A stretch of DNA of 64,000 bases from Acidimicrobiales bacterium (GTDB taxonomy: Bacteria; Actinomycetota; Acidimicrobiia; Acidimicrobiales; Acidimicrobilacustridaceae), in NCBI GenBank assembly GCA_025456085.1, contig JALOLF010000013.1, positions 1 through 64,000 on the forward strand, written 5' to 3'. This document shows positions 34,300 through 44,234 of the stretch, in pieces. Position 1 is the first letter of the stretch. Each line of letters opens with the position of its first letter. Below the pieces are notes generated by a model. It did no database searches. It was given only the letters and a program-made list of their open reading frames with translations, and was not told the DNA's origin. A program made the translations under genes and the position numbers.

Positions 34300-35406
34300 A
34301 TGAGTCCGCCCGACGCCCCCCGCATCCGTCTCGTCGTGCTCTTCGGCGGTCAGTCGGCCGAGCACGACATCTCCCGGGTCACGGCCCGCCACGTGCTCGC
34401 CGCCCTGGACCGCACCCGCTACGACGTCGAGCCCATCGGCATCACCACCGACGGCACCTGGCTGTTCGCCGAGGACGCGGCACTGGCACTGGCCCGGGGG
34501 CCGGAGGCGCTGCCGGCGGCGCTGCCCGTCGAGGGACCGACCGTCGATCCGCTCCCGACCGTGCTGCCCTCGTCCCCCGACGACCGCGTCGTCGTGTTCC
34601 CCCTGCTGCACGGCCCGCTCGGCGAGGACGGCACGGTGCAGGGCCTGCTGGAGCTCGCCGGCGTGCCCTACGTGGGCTGCGGGGTCCTGGCCTCGGCGCT
34701 GGCGATGGACAAGGCCAAGGCCAAGGAGGTGTTCGCCGCCAACGGCGTGCCCCAGGGCCGGTGGGTGACGGTGCGGGAGTGCGATGCCGACGACACCACG
34801 CCGGACCGCCTGGCCGAGTCGCTGGGCCTGCCGGTGTTCGTGAAGCCGGCCAACCTCGGCTCCTCGGTCGGGGTGAGCAAGGCGACGAGTCCGGCGGAAC
34901 TGGCGTCGGCGCTCACGCTGGCGTTCTCCTACGACGAGTGGGTGGTGGTCGAGGAGGCCATCACCGGACGGGAGATCGAGTGCGCCGTGCTCGGCAACGA
35001 GATCCCCCGGACCTCCCTGCCGGGTGAGATCGTTCCCGGTGCGGAGTTCTACGACTACGAGGACAAGTACGTCGACGGCAGCGCCGAGCTGCTCATCCCC
35101 GCACCGCTCGACCCGGCGACCACCGAGGAGCTCCGCGACCTGGCCGCCCGGGCCTACACCGCGCTGCGCTGCGAAGGGATGGCCCGGGTCGACTTCTTCT
35201 ACGAGGCCGACGGCCGGGGTCTGCTGGTGAACGAGGTCAACAGCATCCCCGGGTTCACGGAGATCTCGATGTATCCCCGGATGTGGGAGGCCTCGGGCCT
35301 GCCCTACGCCGAGCTCGTCGACGAGCTCGTGCGCCTCGCTGTCGAGCGGCACGGGCGGCGCATGGCCAAGCGCCGCACCGACCGTCCGGGCCGACCCACC
35401 ACCTAG
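34300..35406 (+). CDS. ddl: D-alanine--D-alanine ligase
   Basis: An ATP-grasp ligase of 368 residues. Motifs: VVLFGGQSAEHDISRVTARHV at the N-terminus, LLHGPLGEDGTVQGLLE, YVGCGVLASALAMDKAKAKEVF, the ATP-binding FVKPANLGSSVGVSKA, the omega-loop FYDYEDKY whose tyrosine favours D-Ala as acceptor over D-lactate, and the Mg-binding VNEVNSIPGFTEISM. It makes the terminal dipeptide of peptidoglycan stems. No Van-type features are seen. The final 15 residues are basic and variable. Confidence 0.96.
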   Translation: MSPPDAPRIRLVVLFGGQSAEHDISRVTARHVLAALDRTRYDVEPIGITTDGTWLFAEDAALALARGPEALPAALPVEGPTVDPLPTVLPSSPDDRVVVFPLLHGPLGEDGTVQGLLELAGVPYVGCGVLASALAMDKAKAKEVFAANGVPQGRWVTVRECDADDTTPDRLAESLGLPVFVKPANLGSSVGVSKATSPAELASALTLAFSYDEWVVVEEAITGREIECAVLGNEIPRTSLPGEIVPGAEFYDYEDKYVDGSAELLIPAPLDPATTEELRDLAARAYTALRCEGMARVDFFYEADGRGLLVNEVNSIPGFTEISMYPRMWEASGLPYAELVDELVRLAVERHGRRMAKRRTDRPGRPTT

Positions 35407-37236: not shown

Positions 37237-37923
37237 CTAGTGCCGGGAAGGCGCGCGTCCCCGCCCCGCCGACGTCTCCGTGGTCGACGGACCGCCGGCG
37301 CCGCCGGGCTGTCCGTCGCCCACGGAGACGGCGTCCGAGACCAGGGCCGAGCGCAGGAAGCGCAGCAGCTCCCGGCGCCGCAGCACCGCCGAGCGCAGGG
37401 TGGGCTCCACGCCGACCGCCCGCAGCACCTCCACCTCGGTGGCCACCCCCAGCACGGTGGAGTACGTCGACAGCAGCAGCAGCCGGGCGTCGCAGCGACG
37501 GAACCGGCCGGCCGTCATCTCGGCCTCGAGGAACACCCGGGCCGAGTCGACGAGCGGCTCCAGATCACCCGACAGGCGCGTCGCCGCCGGCGGACCGAGC
37601 CTGCTCACCTCCCGCAGCAGCCCGAGGAGCTCGGGCCGACGCAGGGCGAGGCGGAACACCGAGCGCACGATGCGCTCCACCCGCTCGAAGCCCTCCCCGA
37701 CCGAGGCCGCCTCGACCAGCACAGAGGCCAACTGCCCCGACGAGTGATCGATCACCGCGTCGAGCAGCTCGGCCTTCGAGGGGAAGTAGTAGAGGATGGT
37801 CTGCTTGCGGATGCCCAGCTCCACGGCGAGCTGGTCGAGCGAGGTGGCGTCGTAGCCCCTGGTGCCGAACGACGACAGGGCGGCGTCGAGCACGCGCCGG
37901 CGGGTGTCGGATGTCGCCCCCAT
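37237..37923 (-). CDS. TetR-family transcriptional regulator
   Basis: A 228-residue repressor-type protein. The HTH is RRRVLDAALSSFGTRGYDATSLDQLAVELGIRKQTILYYFPSKAELLDAV at about 8-57, followed by an all-helical ligand domain and a Gly/Ser/Pro-rich tail. It is divergent from the four-gene lipid operon starting at 37948. A 12-base inverted repeat fills the 24-base gap and overlaps its own -10 box, so autoregulation and operon control are likely. Fatty acyl-CoA is a plausible ligand given the target genes; that is inference. Confidence 0.9.
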   Translation of the reverse strand: MGATSDTRRRVLDAALSSFGTRGYDATSLDQLAVELGIRKQTILYYFPSKAELLDAVIDHSSGQLASVLVEAASVGEGFERVERIVRSVFRLALRRPELLGLLREVSRLGPPAATRLSGDLEPLVDSARVFLEAEMTAGRFRRCDARLLLLSTYSTVLGVATEVEVLRAVGVEPTLRSAVLRRRELLRFLRSALVSDAVSVGDGQPGGAGGPSTTETSAGRGRAPSRH

Positions 37924-37924
37924 T

Positions 37925-37936
37925 TACCAAATGGTA
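37925..37936. promoter_or_regulatory. Inverted-repeat operator between tetR and the lipid operon
   Basis: TACCAAATGGTA has 4-bp arms (TACC/GGTA) around AAAT. On the minus strand it contains TACCAT (37936-37931), seven bases before the tetR ATG, suggesting that the operator covers a leaderless tetR promoter. The operon GTG begins 12 bases beyond the repeat on the other side. Confidence 0.5.
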
Positions 37937-37947
37937 GACAGTGGGGC

Positions 37948-40413
37948 GTGATCCGCGAGCGCCTGGCGGGCAAGCGCATCTTCATCACCGGCACGACCGG
38001 GTTCCTCGGCACGAACGTGCTGGAGCGCCTGCTGCGCTCCGTACCCGACTGCGACATCGTGCTGCTGGTGCGACCCGGCCGCCGGTCGTCGGTTGCCCAG
38101 CGGCTCAAGCGCGAGATCCTCAAGAACGACGCCTTCGACCGGCTGCGCACCGAGTTGGGCGGCGCCGCCGTTTTCGACGAGCTGGCCGCGCGGCGCATCA
38201 CCGCTGTGGCCGGCGACGTGAGCCGCGATGGGCTCGGCCTCGACGAGGAGGGGCGCGCCGCCCTGGCGAGCTGCGACATCGTCATCCACTCAGCCGCCAC
38301 CGTCTCGTTCGACTCGCCGCTCGACAGCGCGGTCGAGGTGAACCTGCTCGGCCCGAGCCGCATCGCCGCCACCCTCCACGACCTGGGCGTCACCCCGCAC
38401 CTCGTCGCCGTGTCCACGTGCTACGTAGCCGGCAACCGACGTGGTGCCGCCCCGGAGCAGCCCGTCGACGAGAGCCCGTTCTTCGTCGACGTCGACTGGC
38501 GGGGTGAGGTGGAGGGCGCCCGTCGCGCCCGCGCCGATGCCGAGGCGGCCAGCCGCACCCCCGAGCAGTTGGCCGGGTTCCGCAAGCGGGCCCGCGCCGA
38601 GCTGGGCGCGGCCGGCACGCCGCTGCTGGCCGAGAAGACCGAGCAGCTCCGCCAACGGTGGGTGGCCGATCGCATGGTGGAGGCCGGTCGGGCCCGCGCC
38701 GCGTCGCTGGGCTGGCCCGACGCCTACGCCTACACCAAGGCCCTCGGCGAGCGGGCCCTGCTCGAGACCCGGGGACCGGTGCCGGTGAGCATCGTGCGCC
38801 CCTCGATCATCGAGTCCGCCCTGGCCGAGCCCCGTTCGGGCTGGATCCGCGGCTTCCGCATGGCCGAGCCGGTGATCATCTCCTACGCCCGGGGTCTGCT
38901 CAAGGAGTTCCCCGGCGTCCCCGAGGGCATCGTCGACGTCATCCCCGTCGACCTCGTCACCTCGGCCATCATCGCCGTGGCGGCTCGCGGGCCGCAGGAG
39001 ACCCCCGACATCGTGCAGGTGGCCTCGGGCTCGGCCAACCCGCTGCGCTACCGCCGCCTGGTCGACCTGGTGTCGAACTGGTTCGCCGAGCACCCGCTCT
39101 ACGACCACCAGGGCCAGCCCATCGTGGTGCCCAAGTGGTCGTTCCCCGGACGGGGCCGGGTGCAGTCCCAGCTCACCCGGGCCAAGGACGTACTGGAGCG
39201 CACCGAGAAGGCGCTCTCGACCCTGCCGCTGCGCGGCAAGCAGGCCGAGTGGAGCGCCACCGTCGAGGAGAAGCGCGAGGAGGCCGAGCGGGCGCTGGGC
39301 TATGTGGAGCTCTACGGCGCCTACGCCGAGTGCGAAGCCGTCTACGGCGTGGAGCGCCTGCTGGCGCTGTGGGACGCCCTCGACGACGCCGACCGCGACG
39401 AGTTCTGCTTCGACCCACGCGTCATCGACTGGCAGCGCTACGTCGAGCAGATCCACCTGCCCTCGGTGGTCGAGCACGCCCGGGTGCGCACCACGCCCGG
39501 TGGGCGCACGGGGCCCAACCGCGAAGACCGCCTGCGCCGACAGGTGCTGGCCCCCGAGCGTCAGCTCGCGGCGTTCGACCTCGAGAACACCCTCATCGCC
39601 TCCAACGTGGTGGCCTCGTACTCGTGGCTGGCCACGCGGCGCCTCCCGCCGGCCGACCGGCTGCGCTTCGTGGCCCAGACGCTGCGCGACGCCCCGGGCT
39701 GGCTGGCCCAGGACCGCAAGGACCGCAGCGACTTCCTGCGCTACTTCTACCGACGCTACGAGGGCGCCCCCGTCGAGCAGATCGACGAGGACTCCTGGGA
39801 GCTGTTCAACCAGCTCATCCTCACCAAGTCGTTCCCGGCCGCCATCCGGCGGGTCCGCGAGCACCGCCGCCTCGGCCATCGCACCGTGCTCATCACCGGC
39901 GCCCTGGACTTCGTGGTGAAGCCCCTCGAGCCGCTCTTCGACGACATCGTGGCCGCCCACCTGAGCGTCGAGCGCGGCGCCTACACCGGCGAGATGACGG
40001 GGGTCCCACCCACCGGTGAGAGCAGGGCCCAGGCCCTCATGGACTACGCGGCCGAGCACGATCTGGATCTGCGCGAGGCCGTGGCCTACGCCGACTCCAC
40101 CAGCGACCTGCCCATGCTCGAGATCGTGGGCTTCCCGGTGGCGGTCAATCCCGAGACCCGCCTCGCCGCGCTGGCCCGCAAGCGGGGCTGGCTGGTGGAG
40201 CACTTCGACAAGGCTCCCGGCGGGCCCCGCCCGATCGTGCCGCTGGCCGAGCGGCGCGGGCAGCGGACCAGGGCCGGCCTGCTGACCCGGGCCATGGGCG
40301 CGGCGCCCGACCTGCCCGATCTCGCGGGCGACGGAGACGGCGCCCGCCGCAGCGCCACCCGCACCGCGGCGCAACGCCTGGCGACCCCCACCCGACGGGG
40401 AGGCCGACGGTGA
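37948..40413 (+). CDS. Fatty acyl-CoA reductase fused to HAD-IB domain
   Basis: An 821-residue two-domain protein. Residues 1-400 form an extended SDR of the fatty-acyl-CoA/thioester reductase (FAR) type: GTTGFLGTNVLERLL for NAD(P)H, HSAATVSFDSPL, and the catalytic Y260-AYT-K264 pair. After a linker, residues from about 540 form a HAD-IB (SerB-like) domain with AFDLENTLIASN, VLITGALDFVVKP and AYADSTSDLPML. The normal DxD nucleophile motif reads D544-L-E546, so phosphatase chemistry is uncertain. The probable role is reduction of long-chain acyl-CoA to aldehyde or alcohol. GTG 37948; the stop overlaps the next GTG. Confidence 0.87.
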   Translation: MIRERLAGKRIFITGTTGFLGTNVLERLLRSVPDCDIVLLVRPGRRSSVAQRLKREILKNDAFDRLRTELGGAAVFDELAARRITAVAGDVSRDGLGLDEEGRAALASCDIVIHSAATVSFDSPLDSAVEVNLLGPSRIAATLHDLGVTPHLVAVSTCYVAGNRRGAAPEQPVDESPFFVDVDWRGEVEGARRARADAEAASRTPEQLAGFRKRARAELGAAGTPLLAEKTEQLRQRWVADRMVEAGRARAASLGWPDAYAYTKALGERALLETRGPVPVSIVRPSIIESALAEPRSGWIRGFRMAEPVIISYARGLLKEFPGVPEGIVDVIPVDLVTSAIIAVAARGPQETPDIVQVASGSANPLRYRRLVDLVSNWFAEHPLYDHQGQPIVVPKWSFPGRGRVQSQLTRAKDVLERTEKALSTLPLRGKQAEWSATVEEKREEAERALGYVELYGAYAECEAVYGVERLLALWDALDDADRDEFCFDPRVIDWQRYVEQIHLPSVVEHARVRTTPGGRTGPNREDRLRRQVLAPERQLAAFDLENTLIASNVVASYSWLATRRLPPADRLRFVAQTLRDAPGWLAQDRKDRSDFLRYFYRRYEGAPVEQIDEDSWELFNQLILTKSFPAAIRRVREHRRLGHRTVLITGALDFVVKPLEPLFDDIVAAHLSVERGAYTGEMTGVPPTGESRAQALMDYAAEHDLDLREAVAYADSTSDLPMLEIVGFPVAVNPETRLAALARKRGWLVEHFDKAPGGPRPIVPLAERRGQRTRAGLLTRAMGAAPDLPDLAGDGDGARRSATRTAAQRLATPTRRGGRR

Positions 40414-41630
40414 AGGCCCTGCTGTTCCGGCGCAAGCCAGCCCGCTACGCCGCCGCCGTGGTGGCGGCATCGGTGGTGCCCGGCAGCGGCGCCCGGGTCG
40501 GTCCGCTGGCCCTCGAGGACGTCGACCCGCCGGAGCTGCCCGGTCCGGACTGGGTACCCATCAAGCCCCGCCTGGCCGGCATCTGCGGCAGCGACCTGTC
40601 CACCATCGACGGACACTCGTCGCGCTACTTCGAACCCATCGTGTCGTTCCCCTTCGTGCCCGGCCACGAGGTCGTCGCCGACCGTGCCGGACCCGACGAC
40701 GGCGCACCCGACGGCTCCCACCGGGTGGTGCTGGAGCCGGTGCTGGGCTGCGTGGCGCGCGGCATCGACCCCCCGTGCGGGGCCTGCGCCCGGGGCGACC
40801 TCGGCAGCTGCGAGCGCATCAGCTTCGGCGACATCGAACCGGGACTGCAGACCGGCTTCTGCTGCGACACCGGCGGTGGCTGGTCGACGGCCATGATCGC
40901 CCACCGCAGTCAACTCCACGAGGTGCCCGCCGCCCTGAGCGACGAGGCGGCCGTGATGGTCGAGCCCACCGCCTGCGCCGTGCACGCAGCCCTGGCCGCC
41001 GGCGTCGAGTCCGGACAGACCGTCGTCGTGCTGGGCTCGGGCACGCTGGGGCTGCTGACCCTGGCGGCGCTGCGCCGCTACACGGATCCGGGCACGCTCG
41101 CGGCGGTGGCCAAGCACCCCGAGCAGCGCCGCCTGGCCCGCGAGCTGGGCGCCGACGTGGTGCTCGAACCGGGCGAGGAGCGCCGGGTGGTTCGCCGGCT
41201 CACCAACAGCCTCGCCATCGGCGACGGCCCCATCACCCGCCTGACCGGCGGTGCCGACGTGGTCGTCGACTGCGTCGGCACCGAGGCCGCCCTGGCCGAC
41301 GCCTTGGCGCTGGCGCGACCCCGGGGACGGATCCTGCTGGTGGGCATGCCGGGCCGGGTCTCGGTGGACCTGACCGGCCTGTGGCAACGCGAGCTGCAGC
41401 TCGTGGGGGCCTACGCCTACGGCACCGAGACCCTCGCCGACGGCACCCGGCGCCGCACCTTCGACCTGGCCTTCGAGTTGGTCGAGGCCGCGGACCTGGG
41501 ACGCCTGGTCAGCGCCACCTACCCCTTGGCCCGCTACCGCGCCGCCATCGCCCACGCCGCAGCCGCCGGGTCGCGAGGCGCGGTGAAGATCGCCTTCGAC
41601 CTACGCAACGAACGAGAGAGGACCCGCTGA
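40410..41630 (+). CDS. Zinc-binding MDR alcohol dehydrogenase
   Basis: A 406-residue medium-chain dehydrogenase. Catalytic zinc ligands are visible in GICGSDLSTIDG and PGHEVVAD, the structural-zinc region is reduced (CGACARGDLGSC), and the nucleotide fold has VVVLGSGTLGLLTL. It differs from standard ADHs by a longer N-terminus and an unusual FGDIEPGLQTGFCCDTGGGW segment. Coupled by GTGA to the acyl-CoA reductase gene, it probably interconverts fatty aldehyde and alcohol or a glycerol-type intermediate. It overlaps the next start (TGATG). Confidence 0.86.
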   Translation: MKALLFRRKPARYAAAVVAASVVPGSGARVGPLALEDVDPPELPGPDWVPIKPRLAGICGSDLSTIDGHSSRYFEPIVSFPFVPGHEVVADRAGPDDGAPDGSHRVVLEPVLGCVARGIDPPCGACARGDLGSCERISFGDIEPGLQTGFCCDTGGGWSTAMIAHRSQLHEVPAALSDEAAVMVEPTACAVHAALAAGVESGQTVVVLGSGTLGLLTLAALRRYTDPGTLAAVAKHPEQRRLARELGADVVLEPGEERRVVRRLTNSLAIGDGPITRLTGGADVVVDCVGTEAALADALALARPRGRILLVGMPGRVSVDLTGLWQRELQLVGAYAYGTETLADGTRRRTFDLAFELVEAADLGRLVSATYPLARYRAAIAHAAAAGSRGAVKIAFDLRNERERTR

Positions 41631-43225
41631 TGCCCAGGCCGGGGTTCGTCCTGGAGGTCGATCGCTCGACCCCGCCCATCCTGTTCCACCACGGCGAGGG
41701 CTTCCGCCTCGAGAAGCTGCCCGCCGGCCGGTCCCGGGTGCTCTATCCGGCCGAGCCGCTGCCCGCGCTGCGCGACCCCGAGGGCGCCATCCGTCACGCC
41801 CTGGCCAACCCGATGGGCGACTCCGAGCCGCTGTCCGCGCTGCTGTTCCCGGGCATGAAGCTCACGATCGCCTTCGACGACATCTCGCTGCCCCTGCCCC
41901 CCATGCGCCGGCCCGACATCCGCCAGCGCGTCATCGAGCAGGTGCTGGACCTCGCCGCCGCCGCCGGTGTGGACGACGTGATGCTCATCGCGGCGCTGGC
42001 CCTGCACCGCCGCATGACCGAGGCCGAGCTGCGCCACGCGGTGGGTGACCGGGTCTACGAGGCGTTCGCCCCTCACGGGCTGCTCGTGAACCACGACGCA
42101 GAGGATCCCGACAACCTCGCCTTCCTGGGCACCACCGACCAGGGCGAGGAGGTCGAGATCAACAAGCGGGCCGCGGAGAGCGACCTGATCGTCTACGTGA
42201 ACATCAACCTGGTTTCGATGGATGGGGGCTGGAAGTCCACCGCCACCGGTCTGGCCAGCTACCGAAGCCTGCGCCACCACCACAACGTGCGCACCATGCG
42301 CCACAGCCGCTCCTTCATGGACCGGCACTCGAGCGAGCTGCACCACGCCAACTGGCGCATGGGCAAGGTGCTGCGCGACGCCGGCGTCAAGGTCTTCCAG
42401 ATCGAGACGACCATGAACAACGACGTGTTCGGCGCCGAGGGCCCCATGAGCGTGCTGCAGAAGCGCGAGTGGGAGTGGTCGGCGAAGGACCGCGCCACCT
42501 TCCTGGCCATGAAGACGGGCCTGGACCGTCTGCCCATGCGGGCCCGGCGCCGCATCTTCCAGTCGTGGCTGGCCCCCCACCAGATGACCTCGGTGCAGGC
42601 CGGCGAGGTGGAGGCCGTGCACGAGCTCACGACCGCCAACGTGTACGCCCAGCACCTGGTGCCGGTGGAGGGCCAGACCGACATCCTCACGATGGGGCTG
42701 CCCTACATCTGCCCCTACAACGTGAACTCGATCATGAACCCGATCCTGGTCATGTGCCTGGGCCTCGGGTACTTCTTCAACCTCTACAAGGGCCGGCCAC
42801 CGGTGCGCGAGGGCGGGGTGCTCATCCTGAGCCACCCCACCACGTGGGAGTTCCACCCGGTGCACCATCCGAGCTACATCGACTTCTTCGAACAGGTGCT
42901 GTCCGAGACCACCGACCCGGAGGTCATCGAGCGGGACTTCGAGCGCTCCTTCGCCGAGGACGAGTGGTACCGCCACCTCTACCGCACCTCGTACGCCTAC
43001 CACGGGGTGCACCCCTTCTACATGTGGTACTGGGGCAGCCACGCCCTGGCACACCTGGGCCGGGTGATCATCGTGGGCGGCGACGTGCGGGCCGTCCGGC
43101 GGCTGGGCTTCCAACCCGCCTCCACGCTGCAGGACGCGCTGGAGATGGCCAGCGACGTGGTGGGTCGCGACGCCACCATCACCCACGTGCACAACCCGCC
43201 CATCCTCATGGCCGACGTGAGCTGA
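41630..43225 (+). CDS. LarA-N-like (DUF2088) protein of the lipid operon
   Basis: A 531-residue protein whose N-terminal half resembles the nickel-pincer lactate racemase (LarA) N-domain: FPGMKLTIAFDDISLPLPPMRRPDIRQ, AAGVDDVMLIAALALHRRMTEAELR and GLLVNHDAEDPDNLAFLG. The C-terminal half (LSHPTTWEFHPVHHPSYIDFFEQVL ... WYRHLYRTSYAYHGVHPF) is His/Tyr-rich and not LarA-like as far as I can tell. It is much longer than LarA (about 420). Whether it binds a Ni-pincer cofactor is unknown; no larB/C/E genes are in the window. Coupling to the ADH gene suggests a role in the same pathway. Confidence 0.72.
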   Translation: MPRPGFVLEVDRSTPPILFHHGEGFRLEKLPAGRSRVLYPAEPLPALRDPEGAIRHALANPMGDSEPLSALLFPGMKLTIAFDDISLPLPPMRRPDIRQRVIEQVLDLAAAAGVDDVMLIAALALHRRMTEAELRHAVGDRVYEAFAPHGLLVNHDAEDPDNLAFLGTTDQGEEVEINKRAAESDLIVYVNINLVSMDGGWKSTATGLASYRSLRHHHNVRTMRHSRSFMDRHSSELHHANWRMGKVLRDAGVKVFQIETTMNNDVFGAEGPMSVLQKREWEWSAKDRATFLAMKTGLDRLPMRARRRIFQSWLAPHQMTSVQAGEVEAVHELTTANVYAQHLVPVEGQTDILTMGLPYICPYNVNSIMNPILVMCLGLGYFFNLYKGRPPVREGGVLILSHPTTWEFHPVHHPSYIDFFEQVLSETTDPEVIERDFERSFAEDEWYRHLYRTSYAYHGVHPFYMWYWGSHALAHLGRVIIVGGDVRAVRRLGFQPASTLQDALEMASDVVGRDATITHVHNPPILMADVS

Positions 43226-43238
43226 GGACGCCACCGCC

Positions 43239-44234
43239 ATGGCCCGCGCCTCCCGCCCGACCAAGCTGACCAGGAAGCTGCCCGTGAACGGCGTGCCCCT
43301 CCAGGCGCTGGCCTCGATGGCGAAGCCGTCGGCGGCCGCGCTCGTGCGCCGAGCACCGTTCCCGCTGCGGCCGGCCAGCATCCCCCAGGGGGTGGAGCCC
43401 CTGCCGCCGGTGAAGCGCACCGGCGCCGACTACGACACCGCCTGGGCGCGGCGCTACCCCGCACGGGCGGCCCGGGTGCTGCTGGTGGAGGGCATCGTGC
43501 GCCCCGCCATGGATGTGCTCGCCGCGCCCGAGGTCCGGGGACTGGACCGACTGGGCGACCTCGAGGGTCCGGTCATCTTCGCCGCCAACCACCACAGCCA
43601 CGTGGACACCCCCCTGTTGCTGTCGGTGGTGCCCGAGCCGTGGCAGCACCACATCGTGATCGGCGCCGCGGCCGACTACTTCTTCGGCACCCGGGTCACC
43701 GCCACCCTGTCGGCCCTGGTGATCGGCGCCATCCCCATCGAGCGGACGAGGGTGAGCCGCTCCTCCGCCGACGAAGCGGCCGAGCTCATCGACGACGGCT
43801 GGAGCTTCCTCATCTTCCCCGAGGGCGGCCGCAGCCCCGACGGGTGGGGTCAGCCCTTCCGCGGTGGCGCCGCCTACCTGTCGGCGCGCTGCAGCGTGCC
43901 GGTGGTGCCCATCCACGTCGCGGGCACGGACCGCATCCTGCCCAAGGGCAAGAGCGTGCCGAAGCCGACGAAGACGACGGTCACCTTCGGCGCCCCGCTG
44001 CGCCCCACCGACGGCGAGGACTCCCGTCGGTTCGCCGTGCGGCTCGAGGCCGCCGTGGCGGCGCTGGCCGACGAGTCCCGCGACGACTGGTACACGGCCC
44101 GCAAGCGGGCCCACGCCGGCACCACCCCGCCGCTGCAGGGCCCGGAGCTCGGTGCCTGGCGACGGGCCTGGGCCGTCGACGACCGGTCGCCGAAACGGCG
44201 TCGGCAGCGTCGCCGCTGGCCCGATCTGGGCTGA
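43239..44234 (+). CDS. PlsC-like 1-acylglycerol-3-phosphate acyltransferase
   Basis: A 331-residue acyltransferase. The HX4D catalytic motif is ANHHSHVDTPLL, followed by IPIERTR, the substrate-binding FPEGGRSPDGWGQPFRGGAAYL, and VPVVPIHVAGT. An N-terminal extension of about 95 basic residues and a basic C-terminus frame the domain. Last gene of the TetR-flanked operon; with the acyl-CoA reductase it may acylate an alkyl or alcohol intermediate. A perfect hairpin terminator follows at 44310. Confidence 0.88.
   Translation: MARASRPTKLTRKLPVNGVPLQALASMAKPSAAALVRRAPFPLRPASIPQGVEPLPPVKRTGADYDTAWARRYPARAARVLLVEGIVRPAMDVLAAPEVRGLDRLGDLEGPVIFAANHHSHVDTPLLLSVVPEPWQHHIVIGAAADYFFGTRVTATLSALVIGAIPIERTRVSRSSADEAAELIDDGWSFLIFPEGGRSPDGWGQPFRGGAAYLSARCSVPVVPIHVAGTDRILPKGKSVPKPTKTTVTFGAPLRPTDGEDSRRFAVRLEAAVAALADESRDDWYTARKRAHAGTTPPLQGPELGAWRRAWAVDDRSPKRRRQRRRWPDLG

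Follow-up and report, generated by a model that had tools for sequence, protein, structure and literature searches.

Organisation of the locus

The window (the whole stretch of 64,000 nucleotides of DNA from an Acidimicrobiales bacterium that was analysed) carries a gene encoding a TetR-family regulator on the minus strand, followed by four genes on the plus strand which encode a fatty acyl-CoA reductase (FAR) fused to a HAD domain, a zinc-dependent alcohol dehydrogenase (ADH), a LarA homologue and PlsC. Domains were assigned to the proteins by Pfam and NCBIfam profile scans. The divergent regulator gene (37237..37923, TetR_N 6e-15) has its start at 37923. The fusion gene (37948-40413, with a GTG start codon at 37948; NAD_binding_4 3e-57, Sterile 1e-6, HAD 5e-27) encodes a FAR domain with its Sterile part in residues 1-513 (37948..39486, NAD_binding_4 3e-57) and a HAD-IB phosphatase-like domain in residues 538-755 (39559..40212, TIGR01490 2e-32, above the cut-off). 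It is followed by the gene for the ADH, a medium-chain zinc enzyme (40410..41630, ADH_zinc_N 1e-17), the gene for the LarA homologue of the LarAH14/15/16 family (41630..43225, Lar_N 1e-38, NF052592 893 bits) and the gene for a PlsC-like 1-acyl(alkyl)-glycerol-3-phosphate acyltransferase (43239..44234, Acyltransferase 8e-19). All five genes lie where the earlier note had placed them and have the identities that it gave. The overlapping or nearly abutting ends that it described were also verified, as GTGA (40410), TGATG (41628-41632) and a spacer of 13 bp ahead of plsC. Neither a promoter-like site nor a convincing terminator was found inside the operon.

The 24-bp gap between the TetR and FAR genes holds a probable operator, TACCAAATGGTAGA (37925..37938), which had been overlooked by the earlier note. 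This is the sole match in the 64 kb, with 0.00 expected by shuffling. The related pattern TACCNNNNGGTA is found at most 150 bp upstream of the FAR gene in 58 of 60 loci with a TetR gene versus 2 of 44 without it (Fisher 4e-24, although P values such as this are exaggerated by the fact that the genomes are not independent of one another). The operator consensus is TACC-N4-GGTA, and no such site was found near larBC or larE. On this sequence evidence the TetR protein is predicted to regulate the operon, probably through this dedicated operator.

Active sites of the FAR-HAD, ADH and PlsC proteins

In the PDB the FAR domain matches the fatty acyl-CoA reductase 7eoz (E 7e-60), and its structural model aligns with this protein, the fatty acyl reductase DPW of rice, with a Z of 40.6 over 458 aa. 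The NAD_binding_4 and Sterile domains and the YxxxK motif that characterise alcohol-forming FARs are all present, with Y260 and K264 invariant, and the protein is predicted to be a fatty acyl-CoA reductase of the alcohol-forming type. In the HAD-IB domain D544, D716 and D720 are invariant; motif I, which holds the nucleophile, reads DxE in the Acidimicrobiia, including the window, and DxD in Rubrobacter. The ligands of the catalytic zinc in the ADH (C59, H86, E87 and E185) are invariant in 82 sequences. PlsC matches the PlsC structure 5kym in the PDB (1e-12), and its HX4D (H118, D123) and EG (E195, G196) motifs are at least 97% conserved.

The LarA-like protein

The LarA-like protein matches the NCBIfam profile NF052592 ("NPN-dependent hydroxyacid isomerase, LarAH14/15/16 family") with 893 bits against a cut-off of 740, and the match is full length (residues 6-530 on positions 1-519/520 of the profile). 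Its AlphaFold model (pLDDT 93.9) can be superposed along its whole length on LarA structures that have been solved, giving for holo LarA_Sp (9q3k) a Z of 41.6 over 453 aa with an rmsd of 2.2. The long C-terminal half, which had seemed unfamiliar at first reading, is by this alignment a normal LarA C-domain, and a novel C-terminal domain was ruled out.

Four residues of the protein, H126, N193, K202 and H218, are invariant in 125 sequences. By sequence alignment, from which alone the residue correspondence was taken, H126 (the first catalytic histidine), K202 (the lysine that binds the nickel-pincer nucleotide, NPN) and H218 (the nickel histidine) align with H115, K195 and H211 of LarA_Sp. The residues expected of the NPN-dependent LarA superfamily are thus present and the protein very probably carries the nickel-pincer cofactor. 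The second catalytic histidine (His174 of LarA) is replaced by an asparagine, N193, in 125 of 125 sequences, so the pair of histidines of a two-histidine racemase is not found here. This single-histidine state has been described for LarA_Sp and LarA_Bw, and LarA groups 14 and 15 are without His174 (PMC12611868). The operon protein resembles LarA_Sp and LarA_Bw (PDB 9q2u, 9q3k, 9q3j) in its fold from end to end, in the catalytic histidine, the NPN lysine and the nickel histidine, and in the asparagine that takes the place of the second histidine. However, it is set among lipid genes whereas LarA_Sp and LarA_Bw are found near glycolysis genes, and the active-site His306 of LarA_Sp aligns with an invariant proline in the operon family. 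A LarAH14 protein of Frankia has been purified and showed no activity with any of seven small hydroxy acids (Desguin et al., PMC7583248), a result which says nothing on lipid substrates.

Conservation of the gene set

The analysis covered 20 loci sampled evenly across the phylum, together with 80 named loci. The FAR-HAD gene lies directly 5' of the LarA gene in all 75 loci with enough sequence, except that in Rubrobacteraceae the ADH gene and sometimes further genes stand between the two, and the PlsC gene lies directly 3' of the LarA gene in 86 of 89 loci. The ADH gene is less constant, being present at the locus in 47 of 75 relatives and missing in 28. A TetR homologue is encoded divergently upstream in 46 of 68 loci, and in some other families it is beside or downstream of the operon. 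Among 296 genomes of the phylum a LarAH protein above the cut-off was found in 72, and FAR-HAD in 72 of these 72; FAR-HAD without such a protein was found in only 8 of the 296, some of which hold LarA fragments. Moreover the distances of the LarA and FAR-HAD proteins covary (r = 0.93). Since the order is kept in relatives, the families co-occur and their distances covary, the gene set is no chance grouping; it is kept across many Actinomycetota. The proposal that these genes must act together, made at first from their overlaps, now finds support in their conservation and co-occurrence and in the operator that they share.

The carriers include Acidimicrobium ferrooxidans (G080), Ilumatobacter coccineus (G113) and Rubrobacter (family f24), the last with R. 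tropicus, R. indicoceani and R. marinus. In every Rubrobacteraceae locus with sufficient upstream sequence a gene for PlsY, assigned from sequence and position rather than by a family scan, is found immediately before the FAR-HAD gene, which is followed by those for ADH and LarA, and no PlsC was detected in these loci. Two lineages therefore join different glycerolipid acyltransferases, PlsC and in Rubrobacter PlsY, to one core.

Genes for the nickel-pincer cofactor

In the genome of the window the genes for LarB and LarC are adjacent on one contig (C279) and the gene for LarE is on another (C132). In a sample of 60 Acidimicrobiia genomes LarB and LarE were above the cut-off in 12 of 12 genomes with the operon versus 1 of 48 others, and in the Acidimicrobiia genomes with the operon its LarA is the sole strong Lar_N protein. 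The genes larE, larB and larC are placed beside the operon in three other families (f22, f70 and f54; genomes G051, G226, G289 and G267). In G051 the genes for FAR-HAD, ADH, LarA, PlsC, LarE, LarB and LarC are co-directional, with overlapping ends throughout except for a gap of 65 bp 5' of the LarA gene, and form one seven-gene operon. Both larB and larC are missing from 7 of the 72 operon genomes, two of which are 96-98% complete, and the LarA sequences checked from such genomes have all the examined residues intact. In two further genomes (G163 and G270) larC is missing, probably by assembly loss since larB is present. The tie between the operon and NPN synthesis is well supported, and so are the composition and conservation of the gene set, its operator and the intact active-site motifs.

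The product of the operon

As the FAR domain is like rice DPW and PlsC or PlsY is attached throughout, the product would most simply be a glycerolipid with a chain derived from a fatty alcohol. An unusual lipid had been suggested from the start, with ether lipids and waxes among the candidates. A paper on the Rubrobacterales (doi 10.1016/j.syapm.2023.126404; referenced by both PMC11150832 and PMC13412118) reports in its title that their polar lipids show a "dominance of mixed ether/ester" types. Five Rubrobacter genomes tested had no Ger/PlsA and no clear alkylglycerone phosphate synthase (AGPS), and all eight tested had no WS/DGAT. The flavoproteins of the five resemble D-lactate dehydrogenase or glycolate oxidase, with a third group of about 960 aa that was set aside on its length and weak similarity to AGPS. 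Because mixed ether/ester lipids are reported for the Rubrobacterales, and the Rubrobacter genomes tested carry the operon but no Ger/PlsA, WS/DGAT or clear AGPS, ether lipids are favoured and wax esters are untenable as the general product. The support for the ether product is correlative.

The known routes to ether lipids resemble this operon in part. The elb operon of Myxococcus xanthus, with the HAD protein ElbB and the FAR-ACS-ACP-acyltransferase ElbD, likewise brings FAR, HAD and PlsC-like activities together in one operon (PMC9131029). However, the operon in the window has FAR fused to HAD instead, adds an NPN enzyme and a zinc ADH, and is without the acyl-CoA synthetase and ACP domains of ElbD, none of which was found in its four products by Pfam scan. 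As in the AGPS route of animals and of MXAN_1676, the operon would use a fatty alcohol, here derived from FAR, and end in acylation at sn-2, but there is no AGPS within it. AGPS was also considered as a hidden universal partner and rejected, given the D-lactate dehydrogenase- and glycolate oxidase-like nature of the flavoproteins found in the Rubrobacter genomes tested, apart from the third group mentioned above. The genome of the window has an AGPS homologue on a different contig, so that the operon may not itself form the ether bond in this organism. The glycerol ester reductases Ger/PlsA also give saturated alkyl glycerol ethers in bacteria, but their DUF2229 part is absent from 10 of 10 operon genomes tested, with a positive Thermotoga control, and this route was ruled out.

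Taken as a whole, we infer with a probability of roughly 0.6 that the operon makes 1-O-alkyl (ether) glycerophospholipids, with its own TetR protein regulating it through TACC-N4-GGTA. In the order of steps that we propose, the FAR domain would first make a fatty alcohol by reducing acyl-CoA or acyl-ACP. A glycerol-phosphate acceptor, supplied by PlsY or from the general pool and in Rubrobacter probably the 1-acyl-glycerol-3-phosphate made by the linked PlsY, would then be converted to 1-O-alkyl-glycerol phosphate. The redox chemistry of this second step is the part proposed for the LarA-like protein. As an NPN enzyme it may abstract the C2-carbinol hydride of the glycerol phosphate; while the hydride is held on the NPN, alkyl could be exchanged for acyl at C1, an exchange that AGPS carries out on a free ketone, and the hydride would then be returned. 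PlsC would finally acylate sn-2 to yield a mixed ether/ester phosphatidic acid, and HAD and ADH may process phosphorylated or oxidised intermediates. The LarA redox chemistry as worded here is doubtful and is the least certain part of the model. Several findings count against the model: most of all the lack of larB and larC in 7 of 72 operon genomes, but also the AGPS homologue elsewhere in the genome of the window, the loss of the ADH gene from 28 of 75 loci and the DxE form of the HAD nucleophile motif in the window. Equally tentative is the broader suggestion that the NPN enzyme forms the glycerol linkage of the ether lipid, or sets its stereochemistry, by parking the C2-carbinol hydride.

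The same genes can be read in other ways. It is possible, if unlikely, that the LarA-like protein epimerises a 2-hydroxyacyl intermediate which FAR reduces to a 1,2-diol and PlsC acylates, giving diol or 2-hydroxy lipids. Long-chain diols do occur in related deep actinobacteria. Moreover 2-hydroxy acids are the substrates of LarA enzymes (PMC11770544), but in the sequence alignment the Arg/Lys that helps to hold the carboxylate in lactate-type LarA (PMC12611868) is not kept, and the PlsY linked in Rubrobacter is an acyltransferase for glycerol phosphate.

Glycerol stereochemistry offers another and rather improbable role, in which the LarA-like enzyme would turn the sn-3 form of glycerol phosphate into the sn-1 form by epimerising its C2, and the remaining genes would attach the chains to that backbone. 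Chemically the C2 carbinol resembles what LarA enzymes act on, PlsY and PlsC take both enantiomers of glycerol phosphate, and a further bacterial route to G1P has been called for (PMC13400652). Nevertheless the conserved asparagine in place of the second histidine argues against a freely reversible racemase, and FAR would be left unexplained.

Single-histidine LarA relatives are found near sugar-phosphate genes (PMC12611868) and polyols are the substrates of the ADH families closest to this one, which would suit a sugar acid or sugar phosphate as the substrate of the LarA-like enzyme, with the operon making some other fatty-alcohol lipid (e.g. an alkyl glycolipid) or serving a degradative or detoxifying pathway for fatty aldehydes. 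Given the constant association with a glycerolipid acyltransferase and the lack of sugar genes in the operon, we think little of the chances of this explanation.

A locus for wax esters or neutral lipids, in which FAR feeds fatty alcohol to a WS/DGAT encoded elsewhere, would agree with the 17 WS/DGAT matches in the genome of the window and with the wealth of WS/DGAT in Ilumatobacter and Microthrix (PMC10351704), but it is very unlikely and as a general function refuted, since WS/DGAT is missing in 10 of 20 operon genomes (the eight of Rubrobacter, A. ferrooxidans and G049), and it leaves the linked PlsC or PlsY and the NPN enzyme unexplained.

Novelty and significance

NPN is a rare organonickel cofactor which, in the literature covered, is known only from hydroxy-acid racemases and epimerases and has several orphan subfamilies. 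The locus had been put forward as an undescribed system. This is right in part. The LarA family is already catalogued (NF052592), but the literature searched connected no nickel-pincer enzyme to lipid synthesis. The operon of Rubrobacter has probably been noticed before. In the abstract of the lipid paper on the Rubrobacterales, 1-O-alkyl glycerol phosphate is reportedly ascribed to a putative operon. What is new is that the NPN cofactor is linked to lipid synthesis through cofactor genes inside the operon.

If the proposal that the operon makes ether lipids is true, the NPN cofactor would for the first time have a role in making lipids. The part assigned to the NPN enzyme, if true, would moreover represent the first NPN reaction other than hydroxy-acid isomerisation and a route to alkyl glycerol ethers independent of both AGPS and Ger. 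An orphan LarA subfamily gains a pathway and candidate substrates, namely fatty alcohol and acyl- or alkyl-glycerol phosphate. In addition, the operon marks candidates for ether lipids among the uncultured Acidimicrobiia and the cultured Rubrobacter, Ilumatobacter and Acidimicrobium, and with these the synthesis of alkyl glycerol ethers in aerobic bacteria that have neither AGPS nor ElbD nor Ger becomes directly testable.

Neither LarB nor LarC, two proteins of nickel-pincer cofactor synthesis, was detected in the operon-carrying genomes G263, G294, G084, G106, G160, G181 and G213. The cofactor residues are retained in the LarA sequences that were checked from genomes without detected LarB or LarC. 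Genome G332, a member of the class, encodes a protein with the Lar_N domain of LarA (L151, a 511-residue open frame on contig C107); in this genome neither LarB nor LarE, a further cofactor synthesis protein, was found over the cut-off. The converse was observed in genome G296, where LarB and LarE are present and there is no Lar_N protein.

The acidimicrobial-type operon was also found in two metagenome-assembled genome records (L057 and L125) bearing the title Bifidobacterium breve. With this operon and LarA proteins 76-85% identical to that of the window, these records look mislabelled.

Upstream of the operon lies ddl, encoding D-Ala-D-Ala ligase (34300-35406), and this position is conserved in most of the Acidimicrobiia loci tested, the genes separating it from the operon differing among them. 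Outside the operon, the window genome encodes a homologue of the alkyl-ether-forming enzyme AGPS (L209, contig C255; best PDB match 2uuu, 4.6e-69). The same genome gave 17 matches to WS/DGAT neutral-lipid synthases, an unusually rich set for a single genome.

HAD motif I, the nucleophile motif of the phosphatase-like domain, corresponds to residues 544-546 of the fusion protein (39577-39585). Of 107 sequences, 80 carry DLE (DxE) at this motif, and another 26, chiefly from Rubrobacteraceae, have DxD, a sequence difference that may affect the activity of the phosphatase.
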